Shown: piece after piece, positions 19,608 through 26,519 of the stretch
Layout of the letters: each line of letters starts with the position of its first letter
Numbering within the stretch: position 1 is the first letter of the stretch
Source of the DNA: Robiginitalea sp.
GTDB taxonomy: Bacteria > Bacteroidota > Bacteroidia > Flavobacteriales > Flavobacteriaceae
Length of the DNA stretch: 64,000 nucleotides
Direction of reading: 5' to 3'
Assembly: GCA_024642005.1 (NCBI GenBank)
Contig: JAHECA010000007.1
Coordinates: 1-64,000, forward strand
The notes under the pieces: model-generated
Database searches by the model: none
What the model was told of the DNA's origin: nothing
The model's input: the letters and a program-made list of their open reading frames with translations, nothing else
Made by a program: the position numbers and the translations under genes

Positions 19608-20078
19608 ATGAAAGCACAATTGGAAAAAACATTTGAAGTACCTCAGGGAAGCGATCTGGTTTGGGAACACCTGATAGACCCAAACAAGGTAATGGACTGC
19701 GTGCCCGGGGTTTCCATCGATGAAAAGGTTGGCGAAAACCATTACAAGGGAAAAGTCGGGATGAAATTCGGGCCCATAGGTGCCAAATACGATGCCGATA
19801 TTTTTTACGATGAAATTGATGTTGCCAACAAAAAGATCATAATTACCGGTAAAGGTGTTGATGTGAAGGGGCAGGGCAGCGCCGACATGACCATGACCAT
19901 GAACATAACCGACAAAGAAGAAGGCGGTTCAAAACTGGATGCCGTTATGGATGTGACCATCAACGGTAAAATTGCCCAATTCGGGGCCCGGTTGATCACC
20001 ACAGTATCAAACCAGCTGTTCAATCAGTTTGTTACCAACTTCTCGAAAAAGCTTGCTAAGGCCGAAGTATCGGCATAG
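19608..20078 (+). CDS. coxG: CoxG, SRPBCC-fold protein of CO dehydrogenase
   Basis: A 156-residue member of the CoxG/SRPBCC ligand-binding family: 'GSDLVWEHLIDPNKVMDCVPGV', split here as 'VWEHLIDP' and 'MDCVPGVSIDE', then 'YKGKVGMKFGPI', 'DVKGQGSADMTM' and 'GKIAQFGARLI'. In Oligotropha CoxG helps attach the dehydrogenase to the membrane and the respiratory chain. No transmembrane segment is visible here. It sits between two hairpins, so its expression level may differ from that of coxL. Confidence 0.9.
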   Translation: MKAQLEKTFEVPQGSDLVWEHLIDPNKVMDCVPGVSIDEKVGENHYKGKVGMKFGPIGAKYDADIFYDEIDVANKKIIITGKGVDVKGQGSADMTMTMNITDKEEGGSKLDAVMDVTINGKIAQFGARLITTVSNQLFNQFVTNFSKKLAKAEVSA

Positions 20079-20103
20079 CCATCTTTTACGACTTCGAATT
20101 CGA

Positions 20104-20130
20104 AAAGCTATGCCCAAAGGGCATAGCTTT
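20104..20130 (+). terminator. 12-bp hairpin between coxG and coxD
   Basis: AAAGCTATGCCC (20104-20115) and GGGCATAGCTTT (20119-20130) form a perfect 12-bp stem with a 3-nt loop, 24 nt before the coxD start codon. The trailing ATAC is not a good T run, so it may be a processing or stability element rather than a full terminator. Confidence 0.55.
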
Positions 20131-20153
20131 ATACATATGCTAAGTTTACGCTT

Positions 20154-21026
20154 TTGAAAAAAGACATCGACGCCCTCGTCAAGAAGTTTTATGAACACGG
20201 CTACATCCTGGACGATGCCCTGGCCACAAGTGTTTTCCTGCTGAAAAACCTGGGAAAACCCCTCTTGCTCGAAGGCGACCCCGGGGTGGGAAAAACCTCC
20301 CTGGCCGGAACCCTGGCAGCTTCCCTCAATACCCAAATGATACGCTTGCAGTGCTATGAGGGGCTTGATGTCGGAACCACGATTTATGAATGGAATTACC
20401 AGAAACAATTGCTTCACATCAAGCTTTTTGAACAGGAAAAGGACAAGAAAACCCTGGGGGAGGAGATCTTCGGGATGGAGTATCTGCTCGAACGACCGCT
20501 GTTGAGGGCCATCAAGTCTGAAGTCCCGGTGGTATTGCTGATCGATGAAATCGACCGGGCCGACGAGGAGTTTGAGGCCTACCTCCTGGAATTGCTCTCA
20601 GATTTCCAGATCAGCATTCCAGAATTGGGGACCATCCGCGCAAAAACAAAACCCCTGGTAATTCTGACCTCGAACCGGACGAGAGAATTGAGTGATGCCC
20701 TTCGCAGGCGCTGCCTCTACCACTGGATTGATTTCCCGACCAAAACCCGTGAAATAGATATCATTGCCAGGAAACTACCCGAGATAGACGAAGTGCTGGC
20801 TGCCCAGGTAGTCACCTTCATTCATAACCTCCGGAAATCTAGCCTGCACAAGCCTCCCGGCATTGCAGAGACCCTGGATTGGGCCAAAACCCTGCTTGTC
20901 CTCAATGCCGGAAATATCACGGATGAACTGGTGCAAAATACCATCGGATGCGTGCTCAAGCACAAAGACGATGTTGATTTCGTCAGGAACCGGACCGTGG
21001 AAGAGTTCCTAATGCCCGTTAGCTAA
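20154..21026 (+). CDS. coxD: CoxD, MoxR-type AAA+ ATPase
   Basis: A 290-residue AAA+ ATPase: Walker A GDPGVGKT at 41-48, Walker B LLIDEIDR at 128-135, then sensor 1 'ILTSNRTRELSDALRRRC'. In Oligotropha CoxD works with the VWA protein CoxE in the post-translational sulfuration and copper loading of the Mo site. The start must be TTG at 20154, since the next Met lies after Walker A. coxE follows 24 nt downstream. Confidence 0.93.
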   Translation: MKKDIDALVKKFYEHGYILDDALATSVFLLKNLGKPLLLEGDPGVGKTSLAGTLAASLNTQMIRLQCYEGLDVGTTIYEWNYQKQLLHIKLFEQEKDKKTLGEEIFGMEYLLERPLLRAIKSEVPVVLLIDEIDRADEEFEAYLLELLSDFQISIPELGTIRAKTKPLVILTSNRTRELSDALRRRCLYHWIDFPTKTREIDIIARKLPEIDEVLAAQVVTFIHNLRKSSLHKPPGIAETLDWAKTLLVLNAGNITDELVQNTIGCVLKHKDDVDFVRNRTVEEFLMPVS

Positions 21027-21050
21027 AAACCTGTAAGAACATTAGTTGCG

Positions 21051-22187
21051 GTGGTTGAAATAGATAAGACATTTAAAGAAAAGCTGATCGACTTTACCTT
21101 TTATTGTAGGGAGCGACAATTCATCCTTGGTCCGCAAGACACGCGGGAGGCATTCGAAATCGCCTCGCGGGGCTACGGGCTAGACCGCAAAGTATTCCAA
21201 TACAGCCTGAAGGCTATATTCTGCAGGCGCAAAGAACATTTTGACAGGTTCGACGAGATGTTTGACCGCTTCTGGAGCCGCTATTACGAGGAAAATCTCG
21301 AGGAGCGGAAAAAGGTGATAAAGCAGCTGCGAAAGGAATCCGAAACGGACACCTTGATTTTTATGGGCGCCAAGTTCAACAAGCCCAGAAAGGAAAAGGA
21401 AGAGCAGGAGGCCAGGCAGACCAGGGGCGCCAATGAGAGCCTGAGGTTGCGCTTTACCGATTTCTCGAAGGTCGATGTGGTAGACAGGGAACGCCTCGAA
21501 GAATTGGCCGAAGAACTCTTTCACCAAATGAGCATGCGTTTCAAAAGACGGCTGGAAAGCGCGAACCGGGGTACTATTGATGTCCGCAAAACCATCCGGC
21601 ATAGCCTATCGACCGGGGGCCTGATGCTCGACCTGGCCCATAAAAAGAAAAAAAAGGAAAAACGTAAGGTGGTTTTTCTGCTCGATGTAAGCGGTTCTAT
21701 GGATACCTACAGCTATTACCTTTTGAGATATGTGATGGTGCTGAGAAAGTATTTCAAAACATTGGAATTCTTCACATTCAGCACCCACCTGACCCATGTT
21801 ACACCTATGTTGCGCGCGCATAACGAACAGGAGGTACTCAGGCAGGTGGGCCGAAACGTGCAGTCCTGGTCAAGCGGCACCAAAATCGGGGAATGCCTTG
21901 TGGAATTCCTGAATACCTACGGCAATAAATTTCTGAGTCAAAAGCACATTGTCGTAATTTTAAGCGATGGCCTGGAAACCGGTAACGTAACCCAGCTCAA
22001 AGAAGCGGTAGGCACCATAAGGCGAAAATGCAAAACCCTGATCTGGCTGAATCCGCTCAAGGGCATGAAAGATTACCAGCCCATTCAGAAAGGCATTGTA
22101 AATGTTATGCCCCATCTGGATGCCTTTGAATCGGCCCATAACCTGGACAGTTTACTGAAATTGGAAAAATTACTGATGAATGTTTAA
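21051..22187 (+). CDS. coxE: CoxE, VWA-domain maturation factor
   Basis: A 378-residue cytoplasmic protein of the CoxE family. An N-terminal helical region (1-200, charged, with a Lys-rich stretch at about 198-206) precedes a VWA domain whose MIDAS is DVSGSM at 212-217 and 'LSDGLETG' later. CoxE is the partner of the MoxR ATPase CoxD in building the Mo-S-Cu site. Start is GTG at 21051. The last 8 nt overlap the coxF start (22180-22187), indicating coupled translation. Confidence 0.92.
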   Translation: MVEIDKTFKEKLIDFTFYCRERQFILGPQDTREAFEIASRGYGLDRKVFQYSLKAIFCRRKEHFDRFDEMFDRFWSRYYEENLEERKKVIKQLRKESETDTLIFMGAKFNKPRKEKEEQEARQTRGANESLRLRFTDFSKVDVVDRERLEELAEELFHQMSMRFKRRLESANRGTIDVRKTIRHSLSTGGLMLDLAHKKKKKEKRKVVFLLDVSGSMDTYSYYLLRYVMVLRKYFKTLEFFTFSTHLTHVTPMLRAHNEQEVLRQVGRNVQSWSSGTKIGECLVEFLNTYGNKFLSQKHIVVILSDGLETGNVTQLKEAVGTIRRKCKTLIWLNPLKGMKDYQPIQKGIVNVMPHLDAFESAHNLDSLLKLEKLLMNV

Positions 22188-23187
22188 CGAACTGGTATTA
22201 AATATAGAAAAGCATTTGGCCCGGGGCTCAAACTTCGCTATTGCGCAGGTTGTCGACCGTATTGCGCCGAGCTCGGGCAAAGTGGGCGACAAGGCCATTA
22301 TTCTGGAAACCGGAGAGATGATTGGTTGGGTAGGGGGCGGATGCGTGCGCGGCATTGTAATCAAGGAGGCCCTGGAAGTCATCCGGACCAAGCGCTACCG
22401 CAGGGTACGCATTTCTCCAGGGGGAGGATCGCGCGAAACTGAGCATTTTAAAGAGTATGTTATGGCATGTCAAAGCAAGGGGACCGTGGAGCTCCTCATT
22501 GAACCGGTAATTCCGCATCCGGAGATCATAATCGTGGGGAAATCGAATATTGGCAGAAAACTCTCGGTCCTGGCTGCAGCATCTGATTTCCGGGTAAGCG
22601 TAATGGCTACCGATGCCGACCCACACCTGTTCCCAACGGCACACCGAGTACTCGACCAAGTTGATTTTTCCGCATTCGACAACTTGTCTAATGCCTACAT
22701 CATTGTTGCCACCCAGGGGGAGGAAGATGACCTATGCGTAAAAAAATCGCTGCAGACCGAGGCCAGGTACGTCGGATTTGTCGCAAGCGCTAAAAAAGCC
22801 GTGGATATACAGGAGTACCTGCGCAGGGAGGGTGTTTCCGGAGAACGGACCGCGCAACTCAAAAGCCCGGTTGGGCTCGACATCAATGCCAAGCTGGCCG
22901 GGGAGGTGGCCATCAGTATCCTTGCCGAAATCATTGATCATTTCAGAAACGGAAGGGGCTCCGAGATGCTGGGTCGGACCGGGGAGACATCGGAAACCAA
23001 TGCCACCCCCGCGCCGGCAGCGGGTGTGGCCTTCGAAGAAGAGTACTACATAAATCCGGTTTGCCAGGTTCCCGTTTCAAAGAAGAACCCAAAACACGTT
23101 ATTGAGTATAAGGGGCAAACGGTTTATTTTTGCTGCGATGGCTGTAAATTGGCATTTGAAAACAACCCCCAGCAATACATAAAGTAA
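22180..23187 (+). CDS. coxF: CoxF-like XdhC protein fused to a C-terminal YHS metal-binding domain
   Basis: A 335-residue protein. Residues about 1-95 are an XdhC_CoxI domain ('NFAIAQVVDRIAPSSGKVGDK' region, 'GWVGGGCVRG'). Residues about 108-265 are an XdhC_C Rossmann domain ('EIIIVGKSNIGRKLSVLA'), followed by a Pro/Ala/Thr linker. Residues about 288-335 form a YHS domain with Cys295 ('NPVCQVPV') and Cys318, Cys319, Cys322 ('FCCDGCKLAF'). XdhC domains bind Mo-cofactor; YHS domains bind copper or other soft metals. Since the CO dehydrogenase site is Mo-S-Cu, the fusion may deliver or seat both metals. That is inference. Starts inside coxE. Confidence 0.9.
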   Translation: MFNELVLNIEKHLARGSNFAIAQVVDRIAPSSGKVGDKAIILETGEMIGWVGGGCVRGIVIKEALEVIRTKRYRRVRISPGGGSRETEHFKEYVMACQSKGTVELLIEPVIPHPEIIIVGKSNIGRKLSVLAAASDFRVSVMATDADPHLFPTAHRVLDQVDFSAFDNLSNAYIIVATQGEEDDLCVKKSLQTEARYVGFVASAKKAVDIQEYLRREGVSGERTAQLKSPVGLDINAKLAGEVAISILAEIIDHFRNGRGSEMLGRTGETSETNATPAPAAGVAFEEEYYINPVCQVPVSKKNPKHVIEYKGQTVYFCCDGCKLAFENNPQQYIK

Positions 23188-23260
23188 CCATGCATCAAAG
23201 TGGTTTCATGCCCAGGCTTTCCAGTTTGTCCTTCAGAGCATTACGAAGAGAAAATTGCAC

Positions 23261-23878
23261 ATGGTGAGTGAGGATGTTGTGGTACTGATCCTGGCCGCAG
23301 GGGCCTCAAGCCGGATGGGCCGCACCAAAGCCCTGCTGCCCTGGAATGGTAAAACCGTGCTGGAGCACCTGGTCGGGCAGGCCGAACAGGCAGATCTCAA
23401 CCAGGTGGTGGTGGTCACCGGCGCAAGCCATGCTGAAATTTGTGAAAAGACAGCCTTTAAGCCCGATTTATTTGTTGAAAATCCGCAATGGGCATCGGGC
23501 ATGGGAACGAGCATCCGAACCGGGCTCAACCAGGTTCTGAACCGTTTTCCCACATGCCGGGGCGTGCTTATCCTGCTGGCAGACCAACCCCTGGTCGATG
23601 CGGCCTATCTGAATGCACTATGCCGGCAATTTACGGGGAAACCCGATTGCCTGGTCGCAACCCGGTATGGTAAAGCCTGCGGGGTTCCCGCTCTGTTCGG
23701 GAGCTCCTATTTCGATGCCCTGAAAGGACTTCCCCCCGAAAAAGGAGCAAAGGCCCTGCTTGATTCGGCGTCAGATCGGGTTATTTGCCTGGATCCAGGT
23801 CCTAAAGGCAGCGATATGGACACCCCCGAGGCCTATGAAGCGTTAAAAATCCAAAATGATCCCTTCCTCCGGAATTGA
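23261..23878 (+). CDS. mocA: MocA-type molybdenum cofactor cytidylyltransferase
   Basis: Start at ATG 23261 (TTG two codons earlier is unlikely). The 205-residue nucleotidyltransferase has the N-terminal signature 'ILAAGASSRMGRTKALLPW', the AAG..SRMG..K.LLPW form of CTP-using MocA proteins rather than the LAGG form of MobA. 'LLADQPLV' holds the metal-binding Asp, and 'GSDMDTPEAY' ends the core. It would make molybdopterin cytosine dinucleotide, the cofactor form known for Oligotropha CO dehydrogenase. Last gene of the cox cluster, 8 nt before the next signal-peptide gene. Confidence 0.88.
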   Translation: MVSEDVVVLILAAGASSRMGRTKALLPWNGKTVLEHLVGQAEQADLNQVVVVTGASHAEICEKTAFKPDLFVENPQWASGMGTSIRTGLNQVLNRFPTCRGVLILLADQPLVDAAYLNALCRQFTGKPDCLVATRYGKACGVPALFGSSYFDALKGLPPEKGAKALLDSASDRVICLDPGPKGSDMDTPEAYEALKIQNDPFLRN

Positions 23879-25072: not shown

Positions 25073-25873
25073 ATGAAAAAGATCGAAATTATGCGAGCGC
25101 TGCTTCTGTTTGCCCTGGGAACCCTGATTCTCGGCCTGCAGGGGTGCAGCACCGATGCAGATGAGCAAGTGATCCCTCAGGATGCCAAACTTACCCAGAC
25201 AGAGTTTCAGGCCGTTATGGGAGCCGATGAATGGACCGGCGCGGTCGATGCCACCCTGGCCGAGATCTATCAGGCAGGGATCGGCATGTCGGGCAAAACA
25301 GCCTTAGACGGATGTTATGACGTTATTTACGGCGATACAGGCTTTTCGGCCACCTTCAAAAATTGTGTACTCAACGGCACAGACAATGTAAACGGCACCC
25401 TGGTAGTGGTTTACAATATTGCCGCCGAAACTACCAGTTTTACAGCTACCTTTGAAGGGTTTTACGTAGGTGACATCGAGCTGAACGGCACCCGTACCTT
25501 TACCCTGGGATCCGGCTCGACCCAAAATGCAATAGCCTTCGAAGTGAGCAGCGAAATGAGTGCCCTGATGGGCGACGGCACACTGATTACCGAAGCTGGG
25601 ATCAAAACCGTGGAGGTAACCCTCGGCGCCTCCCTTACAGCAAGCACATTCACCATACAAGGCTCCTGGAATCTGACCATTGGCGAAAACGCCTATTCCG
25701 CAATCGTGACCAGTGCGCTGTCTGGCACTTTCGACTGCACCCATCTGGTGAGCGGTATCATGGAGCTGAGCAAGAACGGGCTGGAAATTGAAGTTGATTT
25801 TGGCGACGGTTCCTGCGACAACAAGGTAATTATCACCTATCCGAACGGTGCCAAAGAAGAGCTGTTGCTCTGA
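25073..25873 (+). CDS. Uncharacterised lipoprotein
   Basis: A 266-residue protein with lipobox 'LGLQGC' (Cys about residue 25). The rest is beta-rich with alternating Thr/Gly stretches ('GTRTFTLGSGS', 'FTIQGSWNLT'), resembling a small beta-sandwich or half-barrel. It contains four Cys after the lipobox (around 'DGCYDV', 'FKNCVL', 'TFDCTH', 'GSCDNK') that could make two disulfides. I do not recognise a family. Monocistronic, followed by a good terminator. Confidence 0.75.
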   Translation: MKKIEIMRALLLFALGTLILGLQGCSTDADEQVIPQDAKLTQTEFQAVMGADEWTGAVDATLAEIYQAGIGMSGKTALDGCYDVIYGDTGFSATFKNCVLNGTDNVNGTLVVVYNIAAETTSFTATFEGFYVGDIELNGTRTFTLGSGSTQNAIAFEVSSEMSALMGDGTLITEAGIKTVEVTLGASLTASTFTIQGSWNLTIGENAYSAIVTSALSGTFDCTHLVSGIMELSKNGLEIEVDFGDGSCDNKVIITYPNGAKEELLL

Positions 25874-25895: not shown

Positions 25896-25924
25896 AGAAG
25901 GGCCCGCTGATCGCGGGCCTTTTC
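25896..25924. terminator. Bidirectional terminator between the lipoprotein and the microprotein genes
   Basis: GGCCCGC (25901-25907) pairs with GCGGGCC (25913-25919); the stem extends with G-T and two A-T pairs, and TTT follows on the plus strand. On the minus strand the stem is followed by a CTTCTTTTTT run, so it also ends the microprotein transcript, whose last stop is at 25957. Confidence 0.8.
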
Positions 25925-25956: not shown

Positions 25957-26070
25957 TTAGTGTACGTAGTGCCGTGATTCGGTCCATCGGACGCGTTTGC
26001 ACTCCTTGAAGTTGGAGAAGACGGCAAACCTTCTGGATTCGGTCGGGGTGTGGTTGCTGAAGAGTTTCAT
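25957..26070 (-). CDS. Microprotein B of a tandem pair (37 residues, unknown family)
   Basis: ATG at 26070, stop TAA at 25957-25959. The product is basic and has no membrane segment. It is collinear without gaps with the product of the adjacent 37-codon gene: 21 of 37 residues are identical, clustered in PTESxRF, FSxFK and KRVRWxExRxYV (x differs). At about 12 of the 20 conserved non-Met positions the codons differ synonymously, the mark of selection on the protein. It is preceded by the same 18-nt leader as its twin and followed by a terminator. Contains one Cys (residue 24). Not recognised; function unknown. Confidence 0.72.
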   Translation of the reverse strand: MKLFSNHTPTESRRFAVFSNFKECKRVRWTESRHYVH

Positions 26071-26088
26071 GACTGTTGTTTTTTGATG
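26071..26088 (-). repeat. Conserved leader before microprotein B
   Basis: On the minus strand CATCAAAAAACAACAGTC directly precedes the ATG. The same 18 nt precede the ATG of microprotein A (26242-26259). The A-rich leader may be the translation-initiation region, since Bacteroidota often use A-rich, non-Shine-Dalgarno leaders. Confidence 0.6.
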
Positions 26089-26127
26089 ATACTTGCTTTT
26101 TGATTGATAGATTGATGCGTTACTGCC

Positions 26128-26241
26128 TTAATACACGTAGTTTCTCGCTTCGGACCAACGCACCCGCTTGCTGCTCTTGAAGGTTGAGAAGTAACTGAAG
26201 CGTTTGGACTCAGTGGGCAGGTTGTTTGCTGTTTTGATCAT
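26128..26241 (-). CDS. Microprotein A of a tandem pair (37 residues, unknown family)
   Basis: ATG at 26241, stop TAA at 26128-26130, 57 nt upstream of the twin gene. The N-terminal eight residues are variable; residues 9-36 carry the shared core PTESxRF / FSxFK / KRVRWxExRxYV. The strongly basic KRVRW block with a Trp and several Phe/Tyr suggests binding to nucleic acid, membrane surface or a larger protein, but nothing in the sequence decides. Equal length, shared leader and a terminator after the second gene support real translation. Far below usual gene-caller length limits. Confidence 0.72.
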   Translation of the reverse strand: MIKTANNLPTESKRFSYFSTFKSSKRVRWSEARNYVY

Positions 26242-26259
26242 GACTGTTGTTTTTTGATG
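26242..26259 (-). repeat. Conserved leader before microprotein A
   Basis: Identical 18-nt copy of the leader at 26071-26088 (minus strand CATCAAAAAACAACAGTC). Identity of this non-coding stretch contrasts with the many silent differences in the coding parts, so the leader itself may be under selection. Confidence 0.6.
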
Positions 26260-26519
26260 TTGTTTTCTGATTGTGTTTCTTCTTGTATCTCGCCTTGAAA
26301 TTTGGCCTCACTCGTTCCTATTCTTACCAGGCCGCTTTTGGGTGATTAGCCCGGCGCTTTCGAGGCGATTACAACTATAAGACGAAGCTGTATTTAAAAT
26401 GTTACAGTACTATGTATAATAAGGTACTATCTTTAACATTTTTTAAGATTTTCATAAGCGGTACTCTAGCCTGAGTAGGAGGGGATGGGCCCCCGGCCTA
26501 TTTATTTACAACGTTTTTC
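26260..26519. other. AT-rich divergent intergenic region
   Basis: It should hold the minus-strand promoter of the microproteins and the plus-strand promoter of the dipeptidase. Plus-strand TATCTTTA at 26428-26435 is a near match to the -7 element. A minus-strand TATAGTTG (plus 26372-26379) is a one-mismatch candidate. GTACTAT is repeated directly at 26407 and 26424, 17 bp apart. No gene is seen. Confidence 0.4.

Follow-up and report, generated by a model that had tools for sequence, protein, structure and literature searches.

A 64,000-nucleotide stretch of Robiginitalea DNA (the window) contains two paralogous genes for basic microproteins of 37 amino acids, which are predicted to form a stand-alone operon of ca. 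480 nucleotides, running from near position 26375 to a terminator at position 25901 (both ends are predictions). Sequence comparisons support the coding status of the genes, the selection acting on them, their promoter, the operon form, and the existence of a wider system of short peptides. From these we infer the identity of the sigma factor, the stress, and the binding partner. Our overall interpretation, that a sigma factor drives an operon of two basic microproteins that act as polyanion-binding stress effectors, is evenly balanced between right and wrong. The preliminary description of the pair recognized an undescribed family of basic microproteins. That much stands, given the many homologues, purifying selection, basic charge, and lack of any significant match in Pfam, NCBIfam, PADLOC, or the PDB, but the reading was too narrow, because a wider, promoter-defined microprotein system was found. 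On sequence comparison, the window pair looks like the genus-level form of that system. The preliminary description also suggested that the peptide may be structural, regulatory, or nucleic acid binding.

The tandem gene pair in the window

Copy 1 (MIKTANNLPTESKRFSYFSTFKSSKRVRWSEARNYVY; positions 26128 to 26241) and copy 2 (MKLFSNHTPTESRRFAVFSNFKECKRVRWTESRHYVH; positions 25957 to 26070) are both on the minus strand and were assigned with a hidden Markov model family of 139 copies and with pN/pS. The earlier observations on the pair were reproduced. The two open reading frames (ORFs) have an equal length of 37 codons, are separated by 57 nucleotides, and encode gap-free homologues that are identical at 21 of 37 residues, with different codons at 12 of those 21 positions. 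The same A-rich, 18-nucleotide leader (CATCAAAAAACAACAGTC), which has no Shine-Dalgarno-like run, precedes both ATGs on the minus strand (positions 26242 to 26259 for copy 1 and 26071 to 26088 for copy 2), and a 36-nucleotide repeat around the leaders is 83% identical. Copy 2 is followed by an intrinsic minus-strand terminator with a seven-pair, all-GC stem (positions 25919 to 25901). The terminator scan of the whole window gave 2 terminator-like sites with 2.7 expected, and with a total so near expectation it is the strength of this terminator, not its presence, that counts.

The array stands alone, flanked on both sides by opposite-strand genes, a feature absent from the preliminary description. 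The downstream neighbor (positions 25073 to 25873) is on the strand opposite to the array. Farther away, positions 19608 to 23878 hold CoxG-, MoxR ATPase-, VWA-, XdhC/YHS-domain-, and MobA-like transferase-like genes, presumably for molybdenum hydroxylase maturation. The window genome (3.44 Mb in 78 contigs, 99.97% complete) has only the two copies, and further matches at E values of 1.2 and 2.3 were taken as noise.

Homologues, selection, and array form

The possibility that the pair has no homologues in related genomes, raised in the preliminary description, was not borne out, and homologues were found across many relatives. Within the genus, 8 of 9 further genomes had matches to a two-row profile at E < 1e-14 (the exception is 74% complete), as expected for a pair that did not arise by chance. 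Three of 27 further family genomes in a 60-genome set had matches at E < 1e-9. With a 36-row profile the 37-residue family was found in 27 of 199 sampled Flavobacteriaceae genomes (E ≤ 0.01), 22 of which had E values below 1e-6. A phylum-wide sample of 395 genomes had matches in four, every one a member of the Flavobacteriaceae. Named matches were in Robiginitalea, Eudoraea, Muriicola, Poritiphilus, Saonia, and Pricia, together with MAGs and unnamed relatives (26 loci). The collected set comprises 139 distinct copies and 65 arrays of one to four copies each; four of the copies have no ATG near the expected start. Net charge ranged from +3 to +9, with a median pI of 11.0 (135 copies).

Selection was evaluated with 535 pairs of 37-residue copies that had at least 72% nucleotide identity. 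Pooled pN/pS was 0.22 in the annotated frame, well away from the ratio near 1 that had also been raised as a possible outcome, and 1.34, 1.71, 1.44, 0.34, and 2.39 in the other five frames. We take the value of 0.34, which is from an antisense frame, to reflect constraint on the sense frame. In all 1,390 pairs with a pN below 0.25, pS exceeded pN, and in the closest 25 pairs omega was mostly below 0.1, with a highest value of 0.26. In eight Eudoraea-kind genomes the three copies are positional orthologues, with a mean identity of 89% at the same position between genomes (84 pairs) and 63% between positions within one genome (24 pairs). Elsewhere tandem copies are near-identical (11 pairs with at least 94% identity). 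Thus, old, distinct paralogues and recent copies both exist. On these comparisons the window ORFs look like real genes. Gene finders easily pass over ORFs this short.

The gap between copies had a median of 44 nucleotides (74 gaps), and a terminator-like stem followed within 160 nucleotides of 45 of the 65 arrays, a count that together with the scan underlies the terminator assignment in the window. In rough ORF calls, most of the main arrays in Robiginitalea and Eudoraea likewise had opposite-strand genes on both sides. Neighboring genes, again from rough calls, were common to the clade of the Robiginitalea genus and Eudoraea but not beyond it, and the commonest neighbor cluster was present at 18 of 63 loci. 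One locus (L048:7842-8200) has three tandem short forms of the MRTTIFKNSKRIRWSEHRNYAIKS type that consist of the C-terminal core alone, 24 residues from the ATG. Another has near-identical single copies 8 kb apart (L043:4819 and L043:13119); upstream of both is a long stretch of similar sequence, distinct from the ECF promoter described below, that contains TAGATTTG.

Over 135 copies the family leader had A at positions −13 to −10 in 80 to 96% of cases and a purine at position −3 in 97%, base frequencies that entered into the assignment of the leader in the window. According to the available text of PMC6847099, F. johnsoniae does not have Shine-Dalgarno sequences, and A at certain leader positions favors initiation there. 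The array leaders resemble these initiation determinants at −13 to −10 and at −3. The mRNA would carry, before each copy, an A-rich initiation context of the type favoring translation in F. johnsoniae.

The conserved leader also bears on the possibility that the transcript is a regulatory RNA whose ORFs are incidental or merely stabilizing. Such loci can be filed as small RNAs, as the available text of PMC9723704 illustrates with F. psychrophilum Rfp11, which is under a CGT-box promoter class. However, selection acts at the protein level in the annotated frame, the initiation context is conserved before each copy, and there was no Rfam match at the gathering score in 9 sources. We consider a regulatory RNA highly improbable and reject it in favor of microprotein genes. 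The "small RNA" calls of Bacteroidota transcriptomes are a suggested place to look for microprotein operons.

The shared promoter and the wider peptide system

A putative ECF-sigma-type promoter, which was absent from the preliminary description, is located on the minus strand at positions 26381 to 26410. It comprises GTACTGTAAC on the −35 side (positions 26401 to 26410), a 16-nucleotide spacer, and CGTC on the −10 side (positions 26381 to 26384), and its assignment draws on promoter counts at arrays and across the family and on the presence of its core at sigma genes. The core, TGTAAC-N16-CGTC, was found upstream of the first copy in 42 of the 65 arrays, that of the window included, and with an N17 spacer in one more (43 of 65). 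The longer GTACTGTAAC was present at 41 of the 42 N16 sites. At least one promoter-bearing array was found in 39 of 43 genomes, with loci assigned to genomes by the analyst. The four array genomes without an exact promoter were G107 and G208, in which none was recognizable, G145, in which it is degenerate, and G112, which has one-base variants at 2 of its 3 arrays. Among the 22 arrays without an exact promoter, 16 are extra loci in genomes that have the promoter elsewhere. A TAnnTTTG box within 150 nucleotides was found at 4 of these 22 arrays, compared with 1 of the 43 that have the ECF promoter.

Upstream of the array promoters are TGTTAAA-like boxes and an element, CATAGTAC. The corresponding conserved region in the window is on the minus strand at positions 26411 to 26448 and consists of TCTTAAA (positions 26442 to 26448), TGTTAAA (positions 26432 to 26438), and then ATAGTACC...CATA, which leads into GTACTGTAAC. 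It is a candidate activator site by GTTAA counts: two or more GTTAA were found in 62 of 126 array-type promoter rows (duplicates included), compared with 0 of 26 sigma-gene promoters, and the window itself has one exact GTTAA only. The array promoters add to the core a GTAC extension and upstream repeats, which may bind a further activator.

The full pattern, GTACTGTAAC-N16-CGTC, was found at 93 sites in 82 of 199 family genomes, compared with 2 sites for a reversed control pattern. Of these sites, 78 were examined, the other 15 being promoters of 37-residue arrays that had already been collected. An ORF of fewer than 60 amino acids ending in W-x3-[K/R]-x-[Y/F] was found downstream of 67 of the 78 sites, compared with 0 of 79 on the opposite strand (one site entered twice) and 90 of 2,000 random windows, which were drawn from loci that themselves contain arrays. 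Because 5 of the 78 sites are 37-residue arrays, 62 of 73 concern other peptides. These are mainly of 28 residues (MRTLNNNQLTGTLNGTKSNxWNSKRRYR type) and of 43 to 44 residues (ending W-x-G-x-KRYAH). The ending W-x3-[K/R]-x-[Y/F] is also found in 124 of the 139 members of the 37-residue family.

A profile of the 28-residue family had matches in 68 of the 199 family genomes at E ≤ 1e-4 and in 3 of the 395 genomes of the phylum-wide sample, all Flavobacteriaceae. Either the 28- or the 37-residue family was present in 88 of the 199 genomes, in a patchy distribution, and a gene universal in Flavobacteriaceae was rejected as an explanation on this count. The two families occurred together (37-residue matches below 1e-6) only in G034 and G140 (Fisher P = 0.008 for avoidance). 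In an hhalign comparison the 37- and 28-residue profiles aligned end to end, W on W, with an E value of 0.0002 and a probability of 46.6%. This alignment along the length of the profiles suggests common descent of these two families, and for the 37-, 28-, and 44-residue families together the sequence evidence for common descent is suggestive, not proof. In the large genus of G159, taken to be Flavobacterium, the 28-residue family was found in 0 of 41 genomes and the long promoter in 0 of 61, although G159 has the sigma factor discussed below.

Eleven of the 78 examined sites lacked the strict peptide motif, and three of these have near-motif peptides (L181, L183, and L184). Some of the eleven drive secreted-looking acidic repeat proteins. 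At L174, L194, L201, and L229 the sequence GTACTGTAAC-N16-CGTC is located before secreted-looking acidic repeat proteins (repeats like DLDWSTIELIEIEEEVELGFDTSKYLPKNFNALKGK) and no microproteins; the L194 site is one of the L174 sites. In addition, secreted-looking proteins of 115 (L152) and 113 (L165) amino acids follow the promoter core. They are weakly similar (25.7% over 70 residues; E = 5e-5) and are a possible second conserved target of the core.

Within the wider system (L161 to L238), 24 of 77 sites have an exbD-like ORF on the same strand within 1,200 nucleotides downstream, hinting at an ancestral location or at cotranscription. Short ORFs, then a terminator, and in this subset exbD next on the same strand, are also what might be expected of attenuation, with leader peptides controlling the gene that follows. 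However, the window array and the main arrays of Robiginitalea and Eudoraea have an opposite-strand gene as their next downstream neighbor, the peptides have no run of a single amino acid, and the copies are multiple. Attenuation was rejected as the least probable of the explanations that we weighed.

It is possible to extend this interpretation to much of the Flavobacteriaceae. A widely conserved ECF sigma factor would then have, as its leading and best-conserved output, an undescribed operon for basic microproteins of ca. 24 to 45 residues that end in W-x3-[K/R]-x-[Y/F]. The promoter would be conserved almost to the letter, with one peptide family (37, 28, or 44 amino acids) replaced by another from lineage to lineage, and the peptides would be stress effectors of a kind not seen before, with RNA or the ribosome as their target. 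This extension is tentative, and we judge the balance to tilt slightly against it.

Candidate regulator, predicted action, and known systems

The core alone is weakly specific: TGTAAC-N16-CGTC had 19 sites in the window genome, compared with 10 control matches. One of the 19 immediately precedes an operon that encodes an ECF sigma factor together with a putative anti-sigma factor, and the other 18 had no clear theme beyond the sigma operon. The sigma factor matches NCBIfam model NF058625, the GFO_1088 / PG0214 family (235.7 bits; cutoff, 130), to which the proposed regulator in the window genome thus belongs. The second gene of the operon had no NCBIfam match, so the anti-sigma role is a guess from its position. 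Orthologues of the NF058625 sigma factor were found in 39 of 60 genomes, and in 26 of the best 30 of these 39 the core was present ca. 70 to 100 nucleotides before the start of the family match. Because the core is common to the array promoters and the sigma gene, the GFO_1088-family sigma factor is the likely regulator. Transcription of the window operon would most likely be by this factor, whose own gene has the TGTAAC-N16-CGTC core.

The sigma factor was found in 173 of the 199 sampled genomes. It was present in 81 of 82 promoter-positive genomes, compared with 92 of 117 promoter-negative genomes (Fisher P = 8e-6), and the one promoter-positive genome without it (G111) is 81% complete. However, most genomes that lack the sigma factor are small (22 of 26 are no larger than 2.2 Mb), which confounds the association. 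As sequence evidence for the sigma factor, the shared promoter core is stronger than this co-occurrence. A literature search found no paper for GFO_1088 and no account of microprotein arrays as targets of the NF058625 family. The arrays would give a concrete, testable output to an ECF sigma factor whose regulon that search did not find described.

Searches of Pfam and NCBIfam with the 37-, 28-, and 44-residue peptides, and of PADLOC and the PDB with the 37- and 28-residue peptides, gave no significant match. The best Pfam values among 36 members of the 37-residue family were E values of 0.084 and 0.096, for one member each, and one 44-residue peptide had a bPH_1 match (E = 0.073) below the cutoff. 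One copy had a weak PHROGs match (E = 0.0048) to a PHROG of unknown function. Several other identities were considered and rejected. Phage or plasmid cargo was rejected since one copy was unmatched in 50,697 phage and 72,556 plasmid records and none was confirmed in viral contigs. Anti-phage defense was rejected for lack of a PADLOC match. A ribosomal protein was rejected because the peptides are patchy and multicopy, with no PDB match.

Mean net charge was +5.7 to +6.1 in the 37-, 28-, and 44-residue classes, and in all three Trp is invariant and Arg is invariant or near-invariant. The window products share their positive charge and the C-terminal W-x3-[K/R]-x-[Y/F] with the 28- and 44-residue peptides under the same promoter. 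They are probably cytoplasmic, made under envelope or nutrient stress, and may bind RNA, the ribosome, or another polyanion. As far as we infer an action, binding of a polyanion such as RNA or the ribosome is the likeliest, and binding of a protein is its main rival.

In the protein-binding alternative, the microproteins would be sigma-induced feedback regulators that bind one protein, such as the anti-sigma factor, a sensor kinase, RNA polymerase, or an envelope machine, rather than nucleic acid. Conserved W and Y/F beside basic residues would suit a protein interface, there is a parallel in the small, Arg-rich DUF1127 proteins, which bind the kinase PhoR (available text of PMC12501420), and the exbD-like ORF in the wider system might point to a partner of this kind. 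However, the high basic charge in all three classes better suits polyanions, and no neighbor cluster exceeded the share of loci given above for arrays of the 37-residue family. We consider protein binding possible but rather unlikely.

Less probable again, to the point of being doubtful, is that the peptides are exported as cationic antimicrobial or signaling peptides released under stress. They are short, basic, tandem, and present as diversified copies, and different peptide families are under the same promoter in different genera, all of which could be expected of such peptides. However, inspection of the sequences by eye revealed no signal peptide, hydrophobic stretch, or cysteine framework, and no neighboring gene is constant beside the arrays, so there is no constant exporter or immunity gene there. 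Cytoplasmic binding of a polyanion remains the preferred interpretation.

The microprotein ORFs are under clear selection, and the promoter is near letter-identical across many genera. The three peptide families are available for learning what basic microproteins do. In the literature search these peptides and this promoter sequence were not named in the texts available, and the CGT-box class of PMC9723704, as far as its available text goes, may be related. That class, SM6 of F. psychrophilum, comprises an ECF/anti-sigma operon and the putative regulatory RNA Rfp11 and is induced by low nutrients (available text of PMC9723704). It is like the system described here in having an ECF-type CGT-box promoter, with its own ECF/anti-sigma operon and a short independent transcript as targets, in the same portion of that text. 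Rfp11 might be an array of the present kind. In the genus of G159, taken to be Flavobacterium, the 28-residue peptides and the long promoter were not found in the genomes counted above.

DUF1127 small proteins are linked to stress sigma factors. In the available text of PMC12501420, DUF1127 proteins (YjiS, CcaF1, and the Agrobacterium SDPs) are likewise very short and Arg-rich, there are three in A. tumefaciens, and among the members CcaF1 binds RNA and others, as noted above, bind a kinase. Pfam DUF1127 had no match at E ≤ 0.1 among 36 members of the 37-residue family, and four representative peptides from the 28-, 44-, and 37-residue classes likewise did not match it. Unlike DUF1127 proteins, the array peptides were found in one bacterial family only and end in W-x3-[K/R]-x-[Y/F]. 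By analogy, DUF1127 is the nearest working model for the microproteins, one that at most may work like them.
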